From positions 186,001 to 250,000 of the forward strand of contig NZ_AAEW02000002.1 of NCBI RefSeq assembly GCF_000167355.1: a stretch of DNA of 64,000 bases. Direction: 5' to 3'. This stretch comes from Desulfuromonas acetoxidans DSM 684. Its GTDB lineage: Bacteria > Desulfobacterota > Desulfuromonadia > Desulfuromonadales > Desulfuromonadaceae. The translations under genes and the position numbers were made by a program. This document shows, in pieces, positions 28,791 to 63,511 of this stretch (positions within the stretch are counted from its first letter, which is position 1; every line of letters begins with the position of its first letter). The notes under the pieces are model-generated. The model saw only the letters and a list, made by a program, of their open reading frames with translations, had not been told where the DNA came from and did not search any database.

Positions 28791-29630
28791 TTATTTACGA
28801 CCGATCCCTTGAGTAATACGGTCGAGAATCATTGCGAGCAAAACAATCGACAGGCCACCAATGGTGGCGAGGCCGATCTCCAGTGTATTGAGGCCCTGGA
28901 CAACCGGATCACCGAGGCCACCAGCGCCGATCATGGCGGCAATGACCACCATGGACAGCGCCATCATGATGGTCTGGTTTAATCCAGCCATAATCGACGG
29001 CAAAGCCAGGGGAAACTGCACTTTACACAGCACCTGCCACGGCGTGGAGCCAAAGGCGATGGCCGCCTCCACCAGTTCAGGATGCACCTGACGGATACCG
29101 AGATTGGTCAAGCGAATAATCGGCGGCATGGCAAACACAATGGTGGCGAGAATGCCGGAAACAGGACCGATACTGAACAACATGACCACGGGCACCAGAT
29201 AGACAAAGGCCGGGGTGGTCTGCATAGCGTCGAGACACGGCCGCAACAACATCTCAAAGCGGTCACTGCGTCCGGAGAGGATGCCCAGTGGTATGCCGAC
29301 CAGACCACAGAACAGCACCGAGCACACCACCATCGACAAGGTGGTCATGGTCGCCTCCCACTGGCCGAGAAAACCGATCAGAAACAGACTGCTGACCGTG
29401 AACAGCGTGACCCGCTTACCCGCATAGCGCCAGGCCAGCAGAGCCAGGAATACAATCACCACAATGGGCGGCAAGCTGTTGAACAGCCACTGAAAACCGT
29501 CCAGAGATTTTTCGATCGGGACCTTAATGGCCTGAAAAATATCCCGATAGTTCATCGCCAGCCAGCGCACACCGTCTTGTACCCATTCGTCGAGGGGAAT
29601 CAGCTGATCTTCAAAGTTTAGCCATTCCAT
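28791..29630 (-). CDS. proW: Glycine betaine/proline ABC transporter permease
   Basis: About 279 residues from ATG at 29630 whose A is shared with the proV stop (TGATG). Five to six membrane segments and the BPD_transp_1 coupling loop (EAAIAFGSTPWQVLCKVQFPLALPSIMAG). N-terminal region is shorter than in E. coli ProW. Forms the inner-membrane channel of the osmoprotectant transporter. Confidence 0.9.
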   Translation of the reverse strand: MEWLNFEDQLIPLDEWVQDGVRWLAMNYRDIFQAIKVPIEKSLDGFQWLFNSLPPIVVIVFLALLAWRYAGKRVTLFTVSSLFLIGFLGQWEATMTTLSMVVCSVLFCGLVGIPLGILSGRSDRFEMLLRPCLDAMQTTPAFVYLVPVVMLFSIGPVSGILATIVFAMPPIIRLTNLGIRQVHPELVEAAIAFGSTPWQVLCKVQFPLALPSIMAGLNQTIMMALSMVVIAAMIGAGGLGDPVVQGLNTLEIGLATIGGLSIVLLAMILDRITQGIGRK

Positions 29631-30895
29631 CACTGATCACCACCTTTCGTTGTATTTTTATCCGGTACCTGGGTGACGGAATCGGCCTCTTCGTCATTGT
29701 GGTTACGTTGTAACGTGCGTAAAAACTGATTTTTTGAGATCACGCCGAGATAGCGGGCATCTTCGCCAATGATCGGTAACGGCCAGGGGCGATTAACCAC
29801 TTCAGCCAGGATGTCCTGCATGGAATCTTCTGCCCGACCCGTTGTTGCATCTGCCAGGAAGGCGGCATCGAGTTGTTTCGTTTCCGGGCTGTCTTCGATC
29901 AAATTCCTGAGCGATTCCGTCGAAACCACGCCGAGGAAACGACGCTGCGCATCGAGCACGTAGCCGTAATCACGGTCATGACTGATGAGGCGCTGCAAGG
30001 CGGCACGCGGACCTTCGCCGGTATGACGGATCACTGTGACCTGGGTATTACGGGCGATATCTTCCGCTTTGAGAATATTGGTCGGATCCACACCACGGAA
30101 AAAGGCCTTCACATAATCATTGGCCGGCTGCTGCAGGATCTCCTCCGGCGTACCCACCTGCACCACATTGCCCCCCTCCATGATGGCGATGCGATCACCA
30201 ATGCGCATCGCTTCATCAAGGTCGTGGGAGATAAACACGATGGTACGCTGTGACTTGGCCTGCAGGTTGAGCAGCTCATCCTGCATCTCCGTGCGAATCA
30301 GTGGGTCGAGCGCGGAAAAAGCTTCATCCATCAGCAGGATATCGGGGTCGACAGCCAAACCGCGCGCCAGGCCAACGCGCTGCTGCATCCCGCCGGACAA
30401 CTCCGACGGCAAGCTGGCATGCCGGGCTTCGAGACCAACCTGCTCCAGAGCGGCCATGGCCCGTTCGTGTCGCTCTTTTTTATCCGTCCCTGAAATTTCC
30501 AACCCCAACGCGGCATTGTCGAGCACCGTCAAATGGGGCATCAGCGCGAAGGACTGAAACACCATGCTCATTTTGCGCCGCCGGGTTTGAATCAACTTAT
30601 CCTGACTCATCGAGGTCAACTCTTCGTCATCAATCCAAATTTTGCCGCTGGTCGGTTCAATCAGGCGATTGAGCATCCGCACCATGGTCGACTTACCCGA
30701 ACCGGACAAGCCCATGATGACAAAAATCTCGCCGCGATTGATGTGAAAGCTAGCATTTTGCACACCCACGGTGGCACCAGTGCGCTCAAAGATCTCTTCC
30801 TTCGTCAGTCCCTGCTCAACCAGAGACATCACTTTCTTCGGTTGCGGGCCGAAGATCTTATACAAATTTTCTACCCGGACTTTAACTTCATCCAT
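29630..30895 (-). CDS. proV: Glycine betaine/proline ABC transporter ATPase with CBS domains
   Basis: About 421 residues from ATG at 30895 (MDEVKVRVENLYKIFG), preceded by aaagg; the open frame upstream to 31093 has no family similarity. Walker A GLSGSGKST, signature LSGGMQQRVGLARG, Walker B ILLMDEAFSALDP, and two CBS domains in the last 120 residues that in OpuA/ProU-type proteins sense ionic strength or nucleotide second messengers. First gene of the operon; a hairpin-rich leader lies upstream. Confidence 0.9.
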   Translation of the reverse strand: MDEVKVRVENLYKIFGPQPKKVMSLVEQGLTKEEIFERTGATVGVQNASFHINRGEIFVIMGLSGSGKSTMVRMLNRLIEPTSGKIWIDDEELTSMSQDKLIQTRRRKMSMVFQSFALMPHLTVLDNAALGLEISGTDKKERHERAMAALEQVGLEARHASLPSELSGGMQQRVGLARGLAVDPDILLMDEAFSALDPLIRTEMQDELLNLQAKSQRTIVFISHDLDEAMRIGDRIAIMEGGNVVQVGTPEEILQQPANDYVKAFFRGVDPTNILKAEDIARNTQVTVIRHTGEGPRAALQRLISHDRDYGYVLDAQRRFLGVVSTESLRNLIEDSPETKQLDAAFLADATTGRAEDSMQDILAEVVNRPWPLPIIGEDARYLGVISKNQFLRTLQRNHNDEEADSVTQVPDKNTTKGGDQ

Positions 30896-31155
30896 TGCGT
30901 AAACCTTTCGCGGCTCAAGGCAAACCAATCCCTGCATTATCGACGTCAGCAACACCATGAAAAAAGAGACACCTCTTCCACAGCACAACTGGCGGCATCG
31001 GACGGACCAAAGAGCCATATATTTTGTCTTGTTTTGCGAACAGAGCAACCCGCGACCGGTCACGACAGATCTATCGTGATCGACGTTGCTCAAGTGACGA
31101 AACCTCTATGAAACAACCACCAGGAGTGATGTTCTTGACGAGGTCTCTGCGGGAC

Positions 31156-53475: not shown

Positions 53476-55725
53476 ATGGCCATACTATCGGGCTTCAAAC
53501 TGCTTTTCCGCTCTTTGTCCAGACTGGCTATCGGCTGGCGACTGACTGCCGGCTTTGCGGCCGTCTTACTGCTGGTTGTCATCATGAGCAGTGCCACGAT
53601 CTACTCCATCAGCGATATTGAGCAAGCCAACGCACACGTTAACAACGCCCTGGATTCAGCAACCAGCATCCAACAACAGACCGGCCAGATCAACCACTGG
53701 CTCAACCAACTGGAACGGTGTGAATCTGATGTCAAAAACAGCCTGTTGAGTATGGAAGAATCCTTCCTGCGCAACAAAGATGAAGTACACTTGTTCGGCG
53801 ACCAACAAGACCCCCTTAAACTCTGGTTATCCAGCCGGGAACGTGTCGAGCTGACCAAACAATTCCCCCAGACAACGGACCTCATCAACACCCTGGAACA
53901 ACTTCAGACGCAGATCGAAACCAACGCACAAAAGATCAGCGAAACCTGGCAGCCCCGCCATGAAGGTCTCACGCAGGAGCTGAACAAACTGAAACGCACC
54001 CAGATTTACTGGGCGCTTAAAATCACCAACATGATTTTCGTACAAAGTTCCATCGGCGAACTGCTTTTTGAAGAACTCGAAGACACGCCACTCGAAGAGT
54101 TTCGTAACGGCACAATCTACCAACGCTATGCCGAACAATTCCCTCCGCTCAAACAGGCCGTGCAAAATGCCAGCGATGAAAATGAGCAATTACGTCAATC
54201 CAGTTTTGCTTTGGACTCGTTGATCATGGATGGCAAATGGGAAAAAGTGCGCACCATGTACCGCGATGAATTCCCATCGCGGATTAAATCCATGGCTGTC
54301 GACCTTGACTTTGCCCTGCAGATGGAAAACCGGATCCTTTATCAGCAGGACGATGCCATCGCCCTGCTCAACAACAAACTGAAACCAAGCACCGCCCACC
54401 TGTCGCAAACCGTCAACCAACTGCGTCAGATTCTTCAAAAAGCCATGAACCAGGTCAGTCAGATGGACAGCGCCAGCAGTCAGAATGTTCTGAACGCACG
54501 CCATCAGGTAACCACCCAGATCAGCAACACCAAGCAGCGCATCATTCTGACCTCGCTGGTCATCCTCTTTATCGGCACTCTGGCGGCATGGTGGATCACC
54601 CGCTCCATTGTTTCACCGCTGCGCGATACCATGTCGATGATCAAAGAACTCGAAGCGGGACGGTTGAGCAAACGACTCGACTTTTCCCGTCAGGATGAAA
54701 TCGGTGAAATGGCTGCCAGCCTTAATGCCTTTGCCGATCACCTTGAACAAGAGATCATGACCGCCTTCAATCAGCTCGCCGACGGCAACTTTACATTTGA
54801 AACCAAAGGGCTGATCCAGGATCCTCTCAACAACGTCAATCGCGCCCTGAACGAATTGCTCCTCGAAATTCGCAGCATGGGTGAGCATATCCAGACCGGC
54901 TCAAGGCAGATTGCCGATTCAAGCCAGCAGCTTTCGCTGGGAGCCACCTCTCAGGCCAGCTCGGTGGAAGAGATCACGCGCTCCATGTCGAGCATCAGCC
55001 AACAGACCCGCCGCAATGCCGACAATGCCCAACAGGCACGCGGTTTGTCAGAACGCACCCGCAACTCGGCGGAGCAAGGCAATGAACACATAGAGCAGAT
55101 GCTTATTGCCATTGAAGAGATCAACCAATCCGGTGTCAACGTCTCCAAGATCATTAAAGTGATCGATGAGATCGCCTTTCAGACCAACTTGCTGGCCCTC
55201 AACGCCGCCGTTGAAGCGGCGCGTGCCGGTCAGCACGGCAAAGGCTTTGCCGTTGTCGCCGAGGAGGTGCGCAATCTGGCGGCACGCAGTGCCAAGGCGG
55301 CCTCCGAAACCACGTTACTCATCCAGGGCTCCACACAAAAAGCCGAGCGCGGCGTCACGATCGCCCATCAGACCGCCGATGCCCTATCAGAGATCGTCAC
55401 CGAAACCGCCGAGGTTTCCGAACTGATCCGAAAAATTGCCGCCGCCTCGACAGAACAGGCCCAAGACATTGAGCACATCACCGCCGGACTGGCCAAAATC
55501 GATACTGTTGCCCAGCAAAACACCAGCCTGGCCGAACAGAGCGCCAGTGCCTCGGCGCAACTGTCCGAACAGGCTGAGCGGATGCACCAGAGGCTAGAAC
55601 AGTTCTCCCTCTATGCTGCTCCCGCAGAACTTCCGGGACCGAAAACGCAGAGGAGTTCCCACATGCCGGCAATCAGGACAACAAAACCAAAGTCGCTGGA
55701 GGGGTTGAAAAAAAGATCGTGCTAG
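53476..55725 (+). CDS. Methyl-accepting chemotaxis protein with long periplasmic domain
   Basis: 749 residues; aagga before ATG. Membrane segments at about 20-42 and 355-375; the periplasmic part (~310 residues) is helical and may contain two related modules (around 70-150 and 170-290) with a spacing reminiscent of CZB zinc-binding domains, but the ligands are not clearly kept. HAMP and signalling tip ([20 protein letters not shown]) follow. The C-terminal tail is basic and lacks a CheR pentapeptide. Confidence 0.88.
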
Positions 55726-55940: not shown

Positions 55941-56732
55941 TTAAAAGTTGAAGAACAACGACGCACTCAGACTGGTACGGTCGTAAAAGCGTCCTTCGAC
56001 ACGAATACCGCCATCCAACGGCAGCAGAGCCACCTCAACACCGGCAAAGACCTGCGCCACATGATCTTCTTCCATATCAACGCTGGAGTCTTTTTCGTTA
56101 AAGCTCACCGCCGCATCCATCCCTTCGATAAAATAACTGCCCGAGAGACGTTCTTCGGATTTGGTATCATCGAGAAAACTGGCCATGGCTCCGGCATAGC
56201 CGGTAATACGAGCGCTGGAGCACGGCTGCCACTCATAACCGAGCTGCACACCAAAACCATACTCAAGGTATGCTTCATCGCGCTGCCACGTCTCATCAAG
56301 GTAGCTCGCCCCATTGGTCACGACATAATGCTCCTTATACTCAATCCCGGTTGTCCACGTCATTCGACCAAACGCACTGGTATAGAAACCGCCTTGCTCA
56401 AAAAGCACCATGTGCGCGCCGAGGCCAAACATGGGGGCAATATCTTCGGAACCATCCGAATCCGTGCCACCGACCTCAAGACTCACCCCCCAGAACGGTT
56501 GCGGATTAAAGGTCACGCGCGCCACCAGGCGGTTTTCCTCCTGCGGGAACGCAAAGCTGCCGCTGCCAAAGCTATATCCCTGTTGGATATCCCGCTCATA
56601 CTCTTCGTAATACACCTCGGCGCGCATCTGTTTATCACTCGGGGCCAGGATACCGACATCCATGGCGTGCCCCACTGAGGTGACAAACAGCAGGCCGACA
56701 GCAGCAGTACAGAGGATCGATTTCAATTTCAT
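55941..56732 (-). CDS. Outer-membrane beta-barrel protein
   Basis: 263 residues; signal peptide ends GHAMDV. Alternating hydrophobic/aromatic strands and final LSASLFFNF mark an outer-membrane barrel. Acidic loops (DSDGSEDIA, SSVDMEEDH) face outward. No specific family recognised. It lies in a row of three minus-strand envelope genes (55941, 56837, 57553). Confidence 0.7.
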   Translation of the reverse strand: MKLKSILCTAAVGLLFVTSVGHAMDVGILAPSDKQMRAEVYYEEYERDIQQGYSFGSGSFAFPQEENRLVARVTFNPQPFWGVSLEVGGTDSDGSEDIAPMFGLGAHMVLFEQGGFYTSAFGRMTWTTGIEYKEHYVVTNGASYLDETWQRDEAYLEYGFGVQLGYEWQPCSSARITGYAGAMASFLDDTKSEERLSGSYFIEGMDAAVSFNEKDSSVDMEEDHVAQVFAGVEVALLPLDGGIRVEGRFYDRTSLSASLFFNF

Positions 56733-56836: not shown

Positions 56837-57514
56837 TCAAAACTGCCAGCCAATGCCAATTGTGATCGTTAATATTTCAGGGTCGTAGTCATCGACAAAA
56901 GAGCTCCCGGCGATTATCGCCGATGTCGACTCCTGCTGGTACCAGATTTTCTGAACCTCGGCAAAACCATACAGATGCGACGTGACATTCTGGAAAAGTT
57001 TCTGTTTGATTCCGGCCCCTAAGCTGTAGCCGTTAAAATCGACGTGACCGGAATATCGGTCTTGATAGTAAGGACGATCCAGGGTCCACTCGCCGGTCGT
57101 GCGAGCATAGCCAAAGCTCAGATATGCAAAAGTTGCTTCACTGAAAACAATGCCCGGCTGCAACTCAATCCCCCAGCTGTTGTCCAATTCAAACGAAAGC
57201 GTACTGACCTCTTCGGTATCCCGAAAGCGCTGGGTTGTGCTGCCGGACTCTTGGTCACCGAGGGTGTAATACAGCTTTGCCCCAAGGACATAGCGGTCGA
57301 AACGTTGATCGTAGCCGATCGCCACTTTGCCATTGACGCTATCATCATCGATATCAGCCTGAAACCAGTTGGGAAAATCAACATCCGTTTTTGTTTTTGA
57401 GCCACTGATACCGGCCTCGACAAAGGGGCCTTGAAAGTCGCTGGCAACTGCGGTCAGCGGCGTTATCGCAAAGAATATCATCAGCACAAACTTGAAAAAT
57501 CCACGATGCGTCAT
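56837..57514 (-). CDS. Outer-membrane beta-barrel protein, Omp25/OmpA-like
   Basis: About 225 residues, start at 57514 where caggag has proper spacing; earlier ATGs overlap that site. Signal peptide ends TAVASD; an eight-stranded pattern begins GPFVEAGISGSKTKT and ends ITIGIGWQF. Lies 38 bases after the tandem binding-domain lipoprotein gene and may be co-transcribed with it. Confidence 0.7.
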   Translation of the reverse strand: MTHRGFFKFVLMIFFAITPLTAVASDFQGPFVEAGISGSKTKTDVDFPNWFQADIDDDSVNGKVAIGYDQRFDRYVLGAKLYYTLGDQESGSTTQRFRDTEEVSTLSFELDNSWGIELQPGIVFSEATFAYLSFGYARTTGEWTLDRPYYQDRYSGHVDFNGYSLGAGIKQKLFQNVTSHLYGFAEVQKIWYQQESTSAIIAGSSFVDDYDPEILTITIGIGWQF

Positions 57515-57552
57515 CGTCATCTCCTGTCGACTACACTGCAATTATCAATCCC

Positions 57553-59037
57553 CTAGGGCAGTTCACTTCCGTCAAACCAGCTCTGCCAGATCCCTTCAAA
57601 CGTGCCATCCTGTTTCATGGCATCGAGATTCTGTTGCCATTGCTCAACGGTGGAGGTCGGCGTGGTCAGGCTGAACGCAACATAGCCTTCATCGTAGGTT
57701 TCCTCAAATTGCTTGACGATATCTTCAGTCGGGGTTGAGGTCGTATCACACAGCCAATTGATCCCCTCATCGTACATAAACAAGGCATCGACTTCGCCGC
57801 TGAGCAACTGATTGAACGCGTCCAGAGGGGAAAAAGAGGTGGCGACGATGTTGTCAAAGCCATTGGCGAGCAGATAATCATGGGTGTACCAGTTACTGGG
57901 GGTGGCGACGGAACCCAACGCTTTTGCTTCTTCCAGAGTTGTGATGGTGATACCCGAATCACGCAGCGTGTAAAAACTGCCGCGCAACGTGGCGATGGGA
58001 CCGACCCACTGAAACAGTCCCTCGCGCTCCGCAGTGCGGGCGGTGGTAAACAGGGCGCTGTTCGGCAGATACTGCACCGTGGCGTAGGCATCAATCCAGC
58101 CGGTGATTTTGACATTTGCAGCATAGTCATTACGGGACTGAATGGCGTCAACAATCTCGACGGATGAACCCTGGATATCAGGATCGACAATGGACCCGGA
58201 GTAATAATTAAAGGGCGGCGCGACTTCAGTGAACAGCTGCAGAACATCAGGCAGCATGGTTTCATTGGCGTCAGGAAAGTAGCGTTGCAGAATAGCCAGG
58301 GTTTCGTTTGTTTTGATCAGGTCATCCAAACTGGCTTGCACGGCCGCCACCACCTCATCACTGACATCTTTAGAAAAGGCGATGTAATAAAATGCCGACT
58401 TGTAGCCAAAGCACACATCAAAATCATCGCTGAAGGAAAACTGGCCCTGAACTTTGTAGGCCAACTGCTTGCCGTCACTGGCCAGGGCCTGCACATCACC
58501 ATCAAGCAATGCGCCAACCGCTTCATCATAGGTGGCGTAATAGACCAGATTGTCAAAGCCAAGATCCTCCAGCGACGTTGTCTCCAGCCATCCTGTCACA
58601 ACGGCAATGGAGTCCAGCGCTTTGGTGCCGTCCAGACCAAGGGTTGAGCCCAATCCGCTGTCTTTTTTGGCAAACACATAATAACCGGATGAACTGGTCG
58701 GTCCGACCCACTTGAAAAGGTCCTGGCGTTCAGCCGAGTAGCCGATTCCCAACAGGGCACGGTTTGAGCCATTGAGGGTGTTGTCATAGGCAACGGTCGA
58801 GCTTTGTTCCATCTCTACAACATAGTCAACCCCCGCCTCATCCATAGCCGCCGTTGCCGTATCGACATCAATGCCGACAATCTCACCGTTCTGGGTAAAA
58901 CTGTTGGGACTCATCTCGACCACGGAAATAGTTATCGGTGTTGATGTGTGGTGCGAGCTGTCACTACAGCCCCATAAAAATGCACTCAGCAACAACAGCA
59001 GTGACACAAAAAATTTCATCCTTACAGAAGTCTTCAT
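57553..59037 (-). CDS. Lipoprotein with two tandem SBP_bac_3 binding domains
   Basis: About 494 residues from ATG at 59037 with gggag upstream; the ATG at 59148 lies in the promoter. Lipobox FLWGCSD. Two type-II periplasmic binding domains follow in tandem (about 30-250 and 255-490), each with a repeated pattern WVGP...GYYVFAKKDSG / WVGP...GSFYTLRDSG. The usual acidic amino-acid contact of such domains is not obvious. No transporter genes are nearby; a response regulator and 7TMR-DISM kinase are divergent, so it may be their ligand sensor. Confidence 0.75.
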   Translation of the reverse strand: MKTSVRMKFFVSLLLLLSAFLWGCSDSSHHTSTPITISVVEMSPNSFTQNGEIVGIDVDTATAAMDEAGVDYVVEMEQSSTVAYDNTLNGSNRALLGIGYSAERQDLFKWVGPTSSSGYYVFAKKDSGLGSTLGLDGTKALDSIAVVTGWLETTSLEDLGFDNLVYYATYDEAVGALLDGDVQALASDGKQLAYKVQGQFSFSDDFDVCFGYKSAFYYIAFSKDVSDEVVAAVQASLDDLIKTNETLAILQRYFPDANETMLPDVLQLFTEVAPPFNYYSGSIVDPDIQGSSVEIVDAIQSRNDYAANVKITGWIDAYATVQYLPNSALFTTARTAEREGLFQWVGPIATLRGSFYTLRDSGITITTLEEAKALGSVATPSNWYTHDYLLANGFDNIVATSFSPLDAFNQLLSGEVDALFMYDEGINWLCDTTSTPTEDIVKQFEETYDEGYVAFSLTTPTSTVEQWQQNLDAMKQDGTFEGIWQSWFDGSELP

Positions 59038-59192
59038 GAAATTCTCCCTGGTAAAATTGAGGATTGGAATAAGCCTGTGATCAGAAGAAAAAAACCTTCG
59101 CACCCTGAATTGACGGCTAACTGCCTGAAAAGTATACGTTGCATCCAACCGTTAGTTAGTTCATTCTGTCAATGATCCACTCTACTACACAG

Positions 59193-59214
59193 AAGTCGCA
59201 CAAAAGTCGCACAC
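59193..59214. promoter_or_regulatory. 11-bp-period direct repeat, likely response-regulator box
   Basis: aagtcgcaca occurs at 59194-59203 and 59205-59214, the spacing used by OmpR/PhoB-type dimers. It sits between the lipoprotein gene and the divergent winged-helix response regulator gene. Confidence 0.55.
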
Positions 59215-59278
59215 GCCTTCTTTTTAAAAAAAACGTGCAAAAACTGTCGGGACAACCGCCCCTGAAGCAAGGAAAACA

Positions 59279-59968
59279 ATGGAACAACGGGACTATCTGC
59301 AACAGATGACGGTGCTGCTGGCCGAAGACGACAAAATCGTCCGCGACAGCACGGCACAGGCGTTGGAAATATTTGTCCAGCGGGTGATTGCCGTCGAAGA
59401 TGGCGCTGCAGCGCTGCAGCAGTTTCACAGCGGGGTGGCCGACATTGTGATCCTTGATATCAAGATGCCGGGGAAAAGCGGCCTGGTGGTTGCGCGGGAG
59501 ATCAGAAGCAGCGATGAGATCACGCCGATCTTCATTATCAGCTCGTTCAACGACAGTGAGCAACTGCATCAAGCCATTCCGCTACTGCTAATTGATTACC
59601 TGATCAAGCCGCTGACCTTCGACCAACTCAAGGCGGCGCTGATTAAAAGTGTCGATTATCTGGAAAAACGGGGCGGACTGACCTACCCCCTCGGTGATGA
59701 CGTCAGCTACAACAAACGCTCCGGCACCCTGATAACCACAGACGGCCAGGAAACGACGCTGCCGATGCGGGAAAAGCAACTGCTTGATCTGCTGATCACC
59801 AACCGCAACAAGCTGGTGACCAAGGAACGGCTGGAAGATCTGATCTTCAACATGGAATGCAGCGAGACGTCGCTGAAGAACCTGGTCTATCGGCTGAAGA
59901 AAAAAATTCCCGCCAACCGGATCGTTAACGTCAGAGAGATCGGCTACATGTTGGCCGAGCAGGACTAA
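59279..59968 (+). CDS. Winged-helix response regulator
   Basis: 229 residues; aagga before ATG. Receiver (TVLLAEDDKIVRDS, VILDIKMPGKSG, YLIKPLTF) and C-terminal Trans_reg_C-like winged helix (LPMREKQLLDLLITNRNKLVTKERL, SLKNLVYRLKKKIP, VREIGYML). Stops three bases before the kinase start, so the two form one operon and a two-component pair. Confidence 0.87.
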   Translation: MEQRDYLQQMTVLLAEDDKIVRDSTAQALEIFVQRVIAVEDGAAALQQFHSGVADIVILDIKMPGKSGLVVAREIRSSDEITPIFIISSFNDSEQLHQAIPLLLIDYLIKPLTFDQLKAALIKSVDYLEKRGGLTYPLGDDVSYNKRSGTLITTDGQETTLPMREKQLLDLLITNRNKLVTKERLEDLIFNMECSETSLKNLVYRLKKKIPANRIVNVREIGYMLAEQD

Positions 59969-59971
59969 GCA

Positions 59972-61876
59972 ATGAAATTTTTCCTTCAAGTCCTCCTGGC
60001 CCTGCTGTTGCTCAGCAATACCGCCGTCGCGGCCGACCTCCCCGCCGTCGATATCACCCCCACTTTAAACCAACAGGCACTCGACCACAGTACGCTCCAC
60101 GTCCTGATCGATCCGGACAAAACCGCCACCGTGACGGATCTGCTCGTCAACAAGCACCGTGAATGGCACCCTGCCGAGAGAAATTCGTTCCCCTACACCA
60201 CCGCTGCCGTGTGGAGCCAAGCCCGCTTGCACAACAGCTCGTCACAACCGGTAAAGCTCCACCTGATCAACGACTTTGTTGCCCATGATGAAGTGAACAT
60301 TTACCTGATCCGAGGCGGCACCGTCAGTGAGCAGTACCAGTTCGGCGATACGCGGCCAATCCGCGTCACGGAAATCCTCAATCGCTTTGCCAATGTCCAC
60401 ATCACACTGCACGGCAACGAAACCATCGAAGTCCTCACCCGCTACGCCTCGACCACCCCGATCAGCATCAAGATGAAGCTGCTCAGCGAACACAACTATT
60501 CACGGCTGGCCATCGAGGATTTGACCATCTGGGGCGTATTTATCGGCGTTACACTGGCGCTGGTGATCTACAACGTTATGATGTTCGTGTCGCTGCGCAA
60601 TGTGGCCTTTCTTTTCTACGTGCTGCACAGTCTGGCCAACGGCTACAACACTCTGACCAGTTCAGGGCATGTCTATGCGTTTTTGAGCCCACTGCTGCCA
60701 CTGGCCTGGCTTAATCTCAGCTACAAAATCACGCCGTCGGTAGCGGTGATCCTGATGTCGCTATTCATCATCACCTTCTTCGACCTCAAGCACAAAATAG
60801 GCTGGCTGTACAAACTCAACCTCGCCAACATCGGGCTGTTTAGCGCGTTACTCGCGTCATTGTTGTACTTTTATCCAAGCGGCCAACTGCTGCTGCACAA
60901 CAAGATCTCTTCGCTATTGCTCCCCCTGGCGCTGTTGTTCATGCTGTTTTCCGCCCTGGTAGTCGCCTGGCACAAGCTGTTTGCCGGTCGTTATTTCCTC
61001 ATCGGTGCCGGAATCTTCTTTTTCACCATGCTCAATTACGTGCTGTGCTTCACCGGACTGGTCGATTTCGGCAGTGGGGTTCTGTATGTTCTGCCGACAG
61101 GAATGGCGGCAGAGGCGATCTTCTTTGCCATGGCTCTGGGCCAAAAAATAAAACGGATTGAAGCAGAGCGGGCTGAAAACGCCCTGCTGCTTGATGAGAG
61201 CAACAAGTTCAATTCAACCAGCTATCTGCTCGCCGGGATTCTCCACCAGTTCAAGCAGCCGCTGATTTATTTGGGTACAGAGGTTTTAAAGCTGCGCACC
61301 CAGCGCTACCAAAGCGGTCAGGACGACGTGCACAGTGAAGAGATTCTCGGTCATATGGAGAGTCAGATTAGCGGCATGAATGATCTGGTGGGCAATTTTT
61401 ACAGTTTTTATTCGCAACAGCCGCAGCTCGGCGAGTTCGATCTGCAGCATGCCATCGACACCGTGCTGGACATGCTCGCCTCATCGTTGCAGGCAGGAAA
61501 GATCAAGGTCATTAAGGACTATCAGGGCCAACAGCTCTGCGCCGATGAAAAGGCCCTCAAGCAAATCCTGCTGATTTTGCTGGAAAATACCGTCAGCGTC
61601 TTACAGGAAAAAAGTCCCGACGCCCCCACCCTGTGGCTCACCAGCTCCGGCGAGAAGCAGGTCACCATCGAAGTGCGCGACAACGCCGGCGGCATTGATC
61701 CCCAGGCACTTGATAAAATCTTCAACATCCATTACAGCAGAAAACAGGCGCAAGGACTCGGTATCGGCTTGGCACTGGCAAGAAAACTGGCGGAAACACG
61801 CCTCAACGGCAGCCTGACCGTCCACAATGAACCGTCGGGCGCGTGTTTCGTGTTAGTGTTTGGATCGACGTACTGA
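59972..61876 (+). CDS. 7TMR-DISM sensor histidine kinase
   Basis: 634 residues. Signal peptide (cleavage near AVAADL), a periplasmic jelly-roll 7TMR-DISMED2 domain (about 25-185, with YTTAAVWSQARLHNSS), seven membrane segments (190-400), then a kinase: AGILHQFKQPLIYLGTEVL with the phospho-His in an HxxxQPL context rather than SHELRTP, and HATPase (ILLENTVSVLQ, DNAGGIDP, GLGIGLALARKL). DISMED2 domains usually bind carbohydrate. Partner is the preceding regulator. Confidence 0.87.
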   Translation: MKFFLQVLLALLLLSNTAVAADLPAVDITPTLNQQALDHSTLHVLIDPDKTATVTDLLVNKHREWHPAERNSFPYTTAAVWSQARLHNSSSQPVKLHLINDFVAHDEVNIYLIRGGTVSEQYQFGDTRPIRVTEILNRFANVHITLHGNETIEVLTRYASTTPISIKMKLLSEHNYSRLAIEDLTIWGVFIGVTLALVIYNVMMFVSLRNVAFLFYVLHSLANGYNTLTSSGHVYAFLSPLLPLAWLNLSYKITPSVAVILMSLFIITFFDLKHKIGWLYKLNLANIGLFSALLASLLYFYPSGQLLLHNKISSLLLPLALLFMLFSALVVAWHKLFAGRYFLIGAGIFFFTMLNYVLCFTGLVDFGSGVLYVLPTGMAAEAIFFAMALGQKIKRIEAERAENALLLDESNKFNSTSYLLAGILHQFKQPLIYLGTEVLKLRTQRYQSGQDDVHSEEILGHMESQISGMNDLVGNFYSFYSQQPQLGEFDLQHAIDTVLDMLASSLQAGKIKVIKDYQGQQLCADEKALKQILLILLENTVSVLQEKSPDAPTLWLTSSGEKQVTIEVRDNAGGIDPQALDKIFNIHYSRKQAQGLGIGLALARKLAETRLNGSLTVHNEPSGACFVLVFGSTY

Positions 61877-61904: not shown

Positions 61905-62444
61905 TCAAACGTTGATGATACCTCGTTCAGAAAAAACCGCCTTGGCAGCGGCGGCAGCATTCAATGCTGCAGGAAACCCGGCATAAACCGACATCTGAAT
62001 GATGATCTCGACGATTTCCTGAGCAGAGCACCCCACATTCAACGCCGCGCCGATATGAACCTTAAGCTGTGGCTGGGCGTTTCCCATTGCAGCCAGAGCT
62101 GCCACGGTTGCAATTTCGCGAGATTTCACATCCAGGCCCTCCCTGCTGTAGACATCCCCAAACGGATACTCAATGGTATACCGTCCTAAATCCGGAGCGA
62201 TATCCTTTAACGCTTCAATCACTTTTTCGCCGGCATCACCATCAATTTCTTTAAGCTTCTTCCACCCTCGCTCAAATCTGTCATTTCGATCTGCACTCAT
62301 AGTCAACTCCTCAGCTACCGCCCAATCAGAGAACGCCTGACAGCTCGTCAATGACAAACAACCGAATGAAGCTGCAGACAAAATAAACGAGGAAATAATA
62401 AAGTCTCTTCGCTTAATGCCAACAGGCGTTTCATCGTTCTCCAT
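61905..62444 (-). CDS. Carboxymuconolactone decarboxylase-family protein with Tat/lipoprotein signal
   Basis: 179 residues. N-terminus has a twin-arginine motif (IKRRDFIISSFILS) followed by a lipobox (LSLTSC), so it is probably exported folded and lipidated, which is uncommon in this mostly cytoplasmic family. The domain AALAAMGNAQPQLKVHIGAA and VGCSAQEIVEIIIQM is CMD/AhpD-like with a single Cys instead of CxxC, arguing against peroxidase activity. A MerR-type promoter lies before it. Confidence 0.8.
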   Translation of the reverse strand: MENDETPVGIKRRDFIISSFILSAASFGCLSLTSCQAFSDWAVAEELTMSADRNDRFERGWKKLKEIDGDAGEKVIEALKDIAPDLGRYTIEYPFGDVYSREGLDVKSREIATVAALAAMGNAQPQLKVHIGAALNVGCSAQEIVEIIIQMSVYAGFPAALNAAAAAKAVFSERGIINV

Positions 62445-62482
62445 AGGACTCTCCTCTGTTTATGGCAACATCCATATTTGAG

Positions 62483-62513
62483 AGGCTAGACCTTAGAGTT
62501 AACTCTCAGTCAA
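62483..62513 (-). promoter_or_regulatory. MerR-type promoter/operator
   Basis: On the minus strand, ttgact (-35, 62508-62513), 19-base spacer and tagcct (-10, 62483-62488), with agagttaactct palindrome centred in the spacer (62495-62506). Long-spacer promoters of this kind are activated by MerR proteins; it overlaps the merR stop codon and drives the CMD gene. Confidence 0.65.
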
Positions 62514-62883
62514 GAGATATTTTGCCCTCCAATGCCGATTGATAGAGCGCAATTTTCTTATTGAGCAACTCAAAGTTCCGTTTCTGCTCGGAGATTCGCA
62601 CCTGAAGGTCTTGTGAATGATCTTCAAGCATTGCTTTACGCGCGGCCAGAGTTTCATTCCCCAGTTCGCGCAGCCGGGCATATTCCAGAATCTTCTCCAG
62701 TGACATGCCCGTTTCCTTCAACCGCTGCACAAACTCTACCCATTTCACATCCTTCTCAGAAAATTTCCGGTGGCCATTCGCCCGTCTATGGACATGCTTA
62801 AGCAGCCCAATTTTTTCATAGTAGCGAACCGTGTGGGCAGTCAAACCAACCCGCTGTGCAAACTTGGATACATTCATACGCAT
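62506..62883 (-). CDS. MerR-family regulator
   Basis: About 125 residues, start taken at 62883 (or ATG 62877). Helix-turn-helix FAQRVGLTAHTVRYYEKIGLL, wing HRKFSEKDVKWVEFVQRLKETGMSLEKI, long dimer helix and no C-terminal metal-binding Cys pair, as in the aldehyde/oxidative-stress branch (NmlR/AdhR-like). Its target is likely the CMD lipoprotein gene through the promoter at 62483-62513. Confidence 0.85.
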   Translation of the reverse strand: MRMNVSKFAQRVGLTAHTVRYYEKIGLLKHVHRRANGHRKFSEKDVKWVEFVQRLKETGMSLEKILEYARLRELGNETLAARKAMLEDHSQDLQVRISEQKRNFELLNKKIALYQSALEGKISLD

Positions 62884-63067
62884 TGCCGTTCTCGCAAAAT
62901 ATAAAACATCCGACCAGAAGAAACGATACGACCTGCAAAGATCGAGAAACTCGAAGGGCACCGAACATCGCTCTTATTTTTCAGACGTACCTTCCATCCT
63001 GTTGCTTGTGTTGGCAGGCGAATCGCCGTGCTGGTGAATTGTTTTTCTTACATACGGATAACACAAT

Positions 63068-63409
63068 TCAATGATTGATATTTTTGCTTGGCGTTCTTAA
63101 GAGGATTGTTTCACCGCCCCTTTGACTTTTGGGGCCTGCAACAATGTCCAGATTCAATTCCTTGATTTTCATCACCCACCCTGAAAACTCTTGATCTGAC
63201 ACGCAAAAGGCGAGATGGGCCATGGTAAAAACAGACCCGTCATAATCCTTATTTTCAATAACGCCAATAACAGGGCCTTCTTCCAACCCAACATACGCCT
63301 GCCGCAAGTCCTCCCATTTTTGCAGCAATGACAAGCCGGGAAACTCTGTTAAAAACCGTATCTCCTCTTCAAGGTTAACCGCGTTGATCGCAACATGATC
63401 CAGCTTCAT
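63068..63409 (-). CDS. VOC (glyoxalase-fold) protein, probably frameshifted at the C-terminus
   Basis: 113 residues from ATG at 63409 (MKLDHVAINAVN) with gaaggtg upstream; a TTG start at 63508 would add a 33-residue tail without similarity. VOC signatures are present up to GGETILLRTPSKNI, then the frame stops. The expected family ending IIELCYP is encoded immediately downstream in the next frame, which would continue to a stop at 62974. A one-base insertion near 63075 is likely, either real or a sequencing error. Confidence 0.7.
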   Translation of the reverse strand: MKLDHVAINAVNLEEEIRFLTEFPGLSLLQKWEDLRQAYVGLEEGPVIGVIENKDYDGSVFTMAHLAFCVSDQEFSGWVMKIKELNLDIVAGPKSQRGGETILLRTPSKNINH

Positions 63410-63511
63410 GAGCTTCACCTTCTCTGTCTGATCCGCAATCTCTTTAGCCACTGTCCGCACAGCATCACAAGCAGGAGCCTGTTTCGCACCGGAGTTTAAT
63501 TCTTTCAACGG

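Follow-up and report, generated by a model that had tools for sequence, protein, structure and literature searches.

A tandem binding-domain lipoprotein gene divergent from a 7TMR-DISM two-component system: a candidate transporter-independent envelope module

SBP_bac_3 proteins usually serve polar amino-acid importers. Binding domains of this kind are also found in signalling: in BvgS and EvgS, Venus-flytrap (VFT) domains are fused to a kinase, two of them in series, and the lipoprotein GlnH has one binding domain. Three-component systems that include a binding protein are already known. In the CuaD-CuaSR system, a solute-binding protein gene lies beside a kinase/regulator pair and CuaD binds CuaS, the system being cellobiose-specific and serving a pathway with its own importer, CuaABC (PMC10384115). 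In the GlnH-GlnX-PknG system of Corynebacterium, an amino-acid-binding lipoprotein is proposed to signal via a membrane protein, with GlnX and a cytoplasmic protein kinase as partners (PMC9769921). Tandem binding domains occur in GlnP (SBD1-SBD2), where they are joined to the membrane domain of the transporter (PMC8025302). Gene proximity is not always matched by contact, as the genes for PA0602, AgtB and PA4985 lie near kinases and interaction was not detected (PMC11113362).

The locus described here resembles CuaD-CuaSR in its gene arrangement, but differs in having two SBP_bac_3 domains in one lipoprotein, a 7TMR-DISM kinase, two exported proteins and no importer that we could find. The tandem architecture is shared with GlnP and with BvgS and EvgS. 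However, the present lipoprotein comes without a permease, and it is not part of a BvgS-type VFT kinase, as its VFT domains reside on a separate lipoprotein encoded divergently from the kinase gene. What is new here is the tandem binding protein together with its exported partners; among the matches listed from open-licence PMC papers, no title or opening of an abstract reports a tandem lipoprotein of this kind.

Five genes and their products

The window, i.e. the whole 64,000-nucleotide stretch of DNA that was analysed, contains the tandem lipoprotein gene and two exported genes on the minus strand, back to back with a response regulator-histidine kinase pair on the plus strand. The five genes and the elements between them are as follows.

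55941..56732, minus strand: OMP2, exported, putative outer-membrane beta-barrel; signal peptide, C-terminal FFNF (by eye)
56837..57541, minus strand: OMP1, exported, putative outer-membrane beta-barrel; likely start near 57514
57553..59037, minus strand: tandem-VFT lipoprotein, 494 residues; SBP_bac_3 domains at about 35-260 and 263-494; lipobox Cys24
59126..59152, minus strand: conserved block with TATACT; candidate lipoprotein promoter
59194..59212, no strand assigned: direct repeat AGTCGCAC-N3-AGTCGCAC of 11-bp period; candidate response-regulator box
59279..59968, plus strand: OmpR-family response regulator; Response_reg and Trans_reg_C
59972..61876, plus strand: 7TMR-DISM sensor histidine kinase; 7TMR-DISMED2 42-171, 7TM 185-391, HATPase_c 525-629

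The sequence-only reading of this DNA had placed two SBP_bac_3 domains in one chain, and each half of the minus-strand protein indeed belongs to this family, scoring 34.9 and 28.5 bits for PF00497, above the 26.4-bit cut-off. The divergent response regulator and the kinase with a ligand-binding domain, proposed at the same time, are likewise borne out by Pfam: the former has Response_reg and Trans_reg_C, and the latter is a 7TMR-DISM histidine kinase with 7TMR-DISMED2, 7TMR-DISM_7TM and HATPase_c all over cut-off. The lipoprotein start given at that time, TTG 59148, lies 37 codons too early; ATG 59037 is the likely start, because the signal peptide and the lipobox come after it, and the lipoprotein reading frame of a related genome (G007, 494 aa) opens at the equivalent place. 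Two co-directional exported, barrel-like genes downstream of the lipoprotein (57541-56837 and 56732-55941) had been omitted.

The two halves of the lipoprotein are 28% identical (blastp E=2e-15) with a profile-profile probability of 100, and therefore stem from an internal duplication. An AlphaFold model calculated with 50 aligned sequences as input has a mean pLDDT of 90.7 and a pTM of 0.85. Its top whole-length fold matches are, in order, GlnP SBD1-SBD2 (6h30), BvgS (4q0c) and EvgS (9ilw), with full-length TM-scores of just 0.37-0.48, which in the model may reflect two domains placed differently. Single domains match well, the best being the second domain, which aligns over 225 residues with the histidine-kinase sensor domain 3h7m at Z 25.0, and the best profile match is GlnP. 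In the 50 aligned sequences, the carboxylate-type arginine is kept in both halves (Arg104 in 49, Arg338 in all 50), and the amine-type aspartate is kept in the first half (Asp188, 43/50) and less so in the second (Asp423, 25/50). If these four residues play the pocket roles that the alignments and knowledge of the family suggest, their conservation makes amino-acid-type ligands likely.

In the kinase, HisKA was not matched by Pfam; His425, within HQFKQP, is a putative phospho-acceptor, and a search of solved structures with the sensor domain gave no credible match. The OMP1 reading frame opens 11 bp past the lipoprotein gene and encodes a signal peptide and a C-terminal GWQF (by eye). Neither OMP1 nor OMP2 matched a Pfam family, and no credible PDB relative emerged from a search of solved structures; from the look of their sequences, both are probable outer-membrane beta-barrels.

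On the left flank lies a conserved chemoreceptor (53476-55725), the sensor part of which has no Pfam match over cut-off. On the right, a CMD-family gene, a MerR-type gene and a glyoxalase-like ORF (by eye) occupy 61905-63508, flanked by the kinase gene on one side and by what is, by eye, an isochorismatase-like gene on the other; in G007 and G008 these two flanking genes are separated by 11 bp.

Conservation of the block and of the intergenic region

Two other genomes of the same genus, G007 and G008, carry the same five genes beside the same chemoreceptor, so that a binding-protein gene beside kinase and regulator genes is conserved in three genomes of one genus, with the order of OMP1 and OMP2 swapped in G007. 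His425 is kept in all three block genomes. OMP1 was found in three of 58 genomes, the window's own being one of them, and these three belong to a single genus. The full-length kinase was found in the same three, and a partial copy in G011 brings the kinase count to four (E 1e-60 or better, scoring up to 21 candidates in each genome and including the window's own genome). A search with the lipoprotein matched 27 of 147 genomes, with orthologs of at least 86% identity solely in the three block genomes, two of which have lipoproteins 97% identical to each other; the three genomes therefore represent few independent events. Full-length orthologs of 47-51% identity are present in G010 (three copies) and G043.

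Within the genus, G006 has a partial lipoprotein ortholog (75%) at a contig end, and the kinase and OMP1 were not found in this assembly, which is 88% complete. In G002, on one contig, the chemoreceptor is present at 87% identity and the adjoining GGDEF gene at 88%, and the block is absent, the genes at its position not matching block genes. G001 also has the left flank, but the contig stops there, so that presence of the block cannot be judged. The block seems to be gained and lost as a whole, as seen in three genomes only. A separate observation concerns G011, of another genus, which has no more of the kinase than a C-terminal part (84% identical; L042, L050:2924-3766), and in which no lipoprotein ortholog was found.

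OmpR-family regulators use direct repeats of about 11-bp period upstream of their targets. The region between the divergent genes here spans 241 bp, with 67% identity shared by the window and G007; its best-kept 20-bp stretches (19/20 against G007) start at 59193-59194, the direct repeat, and at 59126-59133, the TATACT block. The repeat is kept in G007 and G008, and among nine genomes searched its exact form is confined to the three block genomes, with one copy apiece, at this locus only, the six others having none. One further match with one mismatch in the window's genome equals the level of a reversed-pattern control (once each in four of nine genomes). The repeat was spotted first and tested afterwards, and in a crude shuffle control such a repeat arises in 61 of 5000 block shuffles (~1%). 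A conserved repeat of 11-bp period between the divergent genes would fit control by the response regulator.

Importer genes and the wider family

No transporter had been noticed nearby, and this holds: the sole ABC ATPase and EAA-motif permease of the window, as judged by profile and motif, lie at 28791-31093, about 26 kb off. The genome-wide permease search used TIGR01726, the HEQRo permease family of amino-acid importers, which has no match in the window's genome, G007, G008 or G043, and the lipoprotein does not classify with PAAT ABC importers there; 11 of 14 control genomes were positive, and G010 has one such permease, elsewhere in the genome. Eight other SBP_bac_3 proteins are encoded in the window's genome. 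Seven were scanned, one 1178-residue frame having been left out; six of them carry a kinase or GGDEF domain, and the seventh is cut off and has SBP_bac_3 alone. A hybrid histidine kinase of the same genome contains three SBP_bac_3 domains (L004, G000:C23).

In genome_contigs (84,980 species), two peptide patterns derived from the alignment matched 211 stretches, giving 199 relatives and at least 79 loci; with the single lipoprotein as query, the scan found no relative. Full-length tandem proteins among the loci listed come from Bacteroidetes/Bacteroidales, Cloacimonadota, Ignavibacteriales, Desulfuromonas, Desulfonatronovibrio and Methylobacter records, all MAGs, and orthologs in Bacteroidota, Cloacimonadota and Desulfuromonas are 28-51% identical to the lipoprotein. 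At five or more Pseudomonas/gammaproteobacterial loci (L100, L114, L120, L122, L125), two adjacent single-domain genes resemble the tandem protein split in two.

Neighbourhoods were surveyed at 48 related loci, using ORFs of at least 100 aa and family calls from our own profiles and one motif. The block-genome loci (L043, L044, L049) and the G006 fragment (L048) were left out, as were L045 and L047, which share contigs with L052 and L065; many flanks are short, ended by contig ends. The finding named earlier as one that would refute the reading, orthologs beside ABC permeases, did not turn up: none of 109 ORFs within 1 kb was called as an ABC ATPase or an EAA-motif permease, a motif that misses other permease types, as it did the BPD_transp_2 permease that lies about 2.1 kb away from the L095 gene. 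Within 2 kb, the ABC ATPase profile matches four of 162 ORFs (p=0.15), two of which, at L076 and L094, are RecF-like by eye. At L069 and L095, an ABC ATPase lies about 1.2-1.3 kb from a distant tandem gene, on the other strand, L095 also having the BPD_transp_2 permease, and at L097 ABC-type genes lie 3.3-4.4 kb away, with a permease at 3.9 kb on the other strand. An importer role for the lipoprotein is unlikely, since no TIGR01726 permease was found in the three block genomes, and profile and motif gave no ABC ATPase or EAA permease within 1 kb at the 48 loci.

The suggested link to a kinase fared unevenly. The pairing of the genes is kept in all three block genomes, but beside orthologs outside the genus kinases are not in excess: histidine kinases account for four of 109 ORFs within 1 kb versus eight of 320 farther away (p=0.36), and a general kinase linkage of tandem lipoproteins is rejected on these counts. 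HATPase_c was found by Pfam in all seven kinase calls checked. Response regulators number 0/109 near and 10/320 farther. The tandem lipoproteins of Bacteroidota and Cloacimonadota MAGs are the same two-domain protein (28-49% identity), but they share no kinase-regulator block, and kinases are no commoner in their vicinity than in the rest of the loci. Exceptions with a kinase close to the tandem gene are L097 (89 bp downstream) and L057 (329 bp), and at L087 and L092 a kinase lies about 660 bp upstream.

In G010 and G043, the lipoprotein is found among NHL-repeat lipoproteins and a Bmp lipoprotein, joined in G043 by a tandem Peripla_BP_6 lipoprotein. Of the three copies in G010, the third is without NHL-repeat or Bmp neighbours. 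Clusters of such unlike binding lipoproteins (tandem SBP_bac_3, NHL-repeat, Bmp, tandem Peripla_BP_6) extend over L046:3608-14838 and L045:6077-14669, near an Nramp-like or xanthine/uracil-type permease. The G043 ortholog has more than 100 extra C-terminal residues (L046:8831-9211); a Cache-like domain considered for them was dropped, as no Pfam family matched. The motif K[DE][DE] following the lipid cysteine, considered as a signal for surface export, was also discarded, with 9 of 30 Bacteroidota tandem lipoproteins versus 4 of 22 other lipoprotein-like ORFs from the same loci; a wider motif (11/30) gave no clear signal either, rows without a recognised lipobox having been dropped from the count.

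Proposed module and competing readings

We lean, with moderate confidence, towards a five-gene, transporter-independent envelope module in which the two-component system controls the divergent operon and the lipoprotein binds or senses solutes and feeds no ABC importer. The 7TMR-DISM kinase and the OmpR-type regulator would control the operon, as gene order, co-occurrence and the conserved 11-bp-period repeat suggest. The operon would in turn make a lipoprotein with two amino-acid-type VFT domains, along with two small proteins that are exported, probably to the outer membrane. This lipoprotein would bind small solutes, probably amino acids or amines, and serve as an envelope binding or sensing protein. 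That the two-component system controls the operon is likely, and a simpler reading than physical coupling.

Such coupling can be entertained tentatively: the ligand-loaded tandem lipoprotein would dock on 7TMR-DISMED2 and set kinase activity, CuaDSR-like with two binding domains. The divergent pairing in all three block genomes and the sensor proteins among the other SBP_bac_3 proteins scanned (6/7) speak for it. However, the lack of a kinase excess outside the genus argues against it, as does the serine at +2 after the lipid cysteine, a residue that suggests lipoprotein sorting to the outer membrane. Precedent is also divided, with CuaD binding to CuaS (PMC10384115) and the proposed signalling of GlnH via GlnX (PMC9769921) on one side, whereas adjoining binding-protein and kinase genes may be unlinked, as for AgtS/AruS (PMC11113362), and the DISMED2 domain of NicD is reported as a direct carbohydrate binder (PMC8544897). 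We regard as speculative and doubtful a more elaborate form, a BvgS-like double VFT receptor split from its kinase, which would be outer-membrane-anchored and OMP-supplied, dock in trans and integrate two signals, with no transporter.

The genes could instead have come together by chance, the lipoprotein operon being an orphan and the adjoining two-component system unrelated to it, as distant orthologs without kinase excess and the G006 partial ortholog, in whose assembly kinase and OMP1 were not found, would allow. This is improbable, given that the same three genomes hold the full-length kinase, OMP1 and the close orthologs of the lipoprotein and that the repeat is conserved in the shared intergenic region. 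Very improbable is a receptor for the importer of an unlinked permease; the usual role of the SBP_bac_3 family and GlnP as best profile and fold match point that way, but they are opposed by the missing TIGR01726 family in four genomes and by the 48-locus survey.

In conclusion, with the proposed envelope module, the binding proteins known to be linked to two-component systems would come to include a lipoprotein that has two binding domains and acts without a transporter, and tandem lipoproteins of this type are found in several phyla. If coupling to the kinase is true, a seven-helix kinase could receive two ligands from a single soluble receptor.
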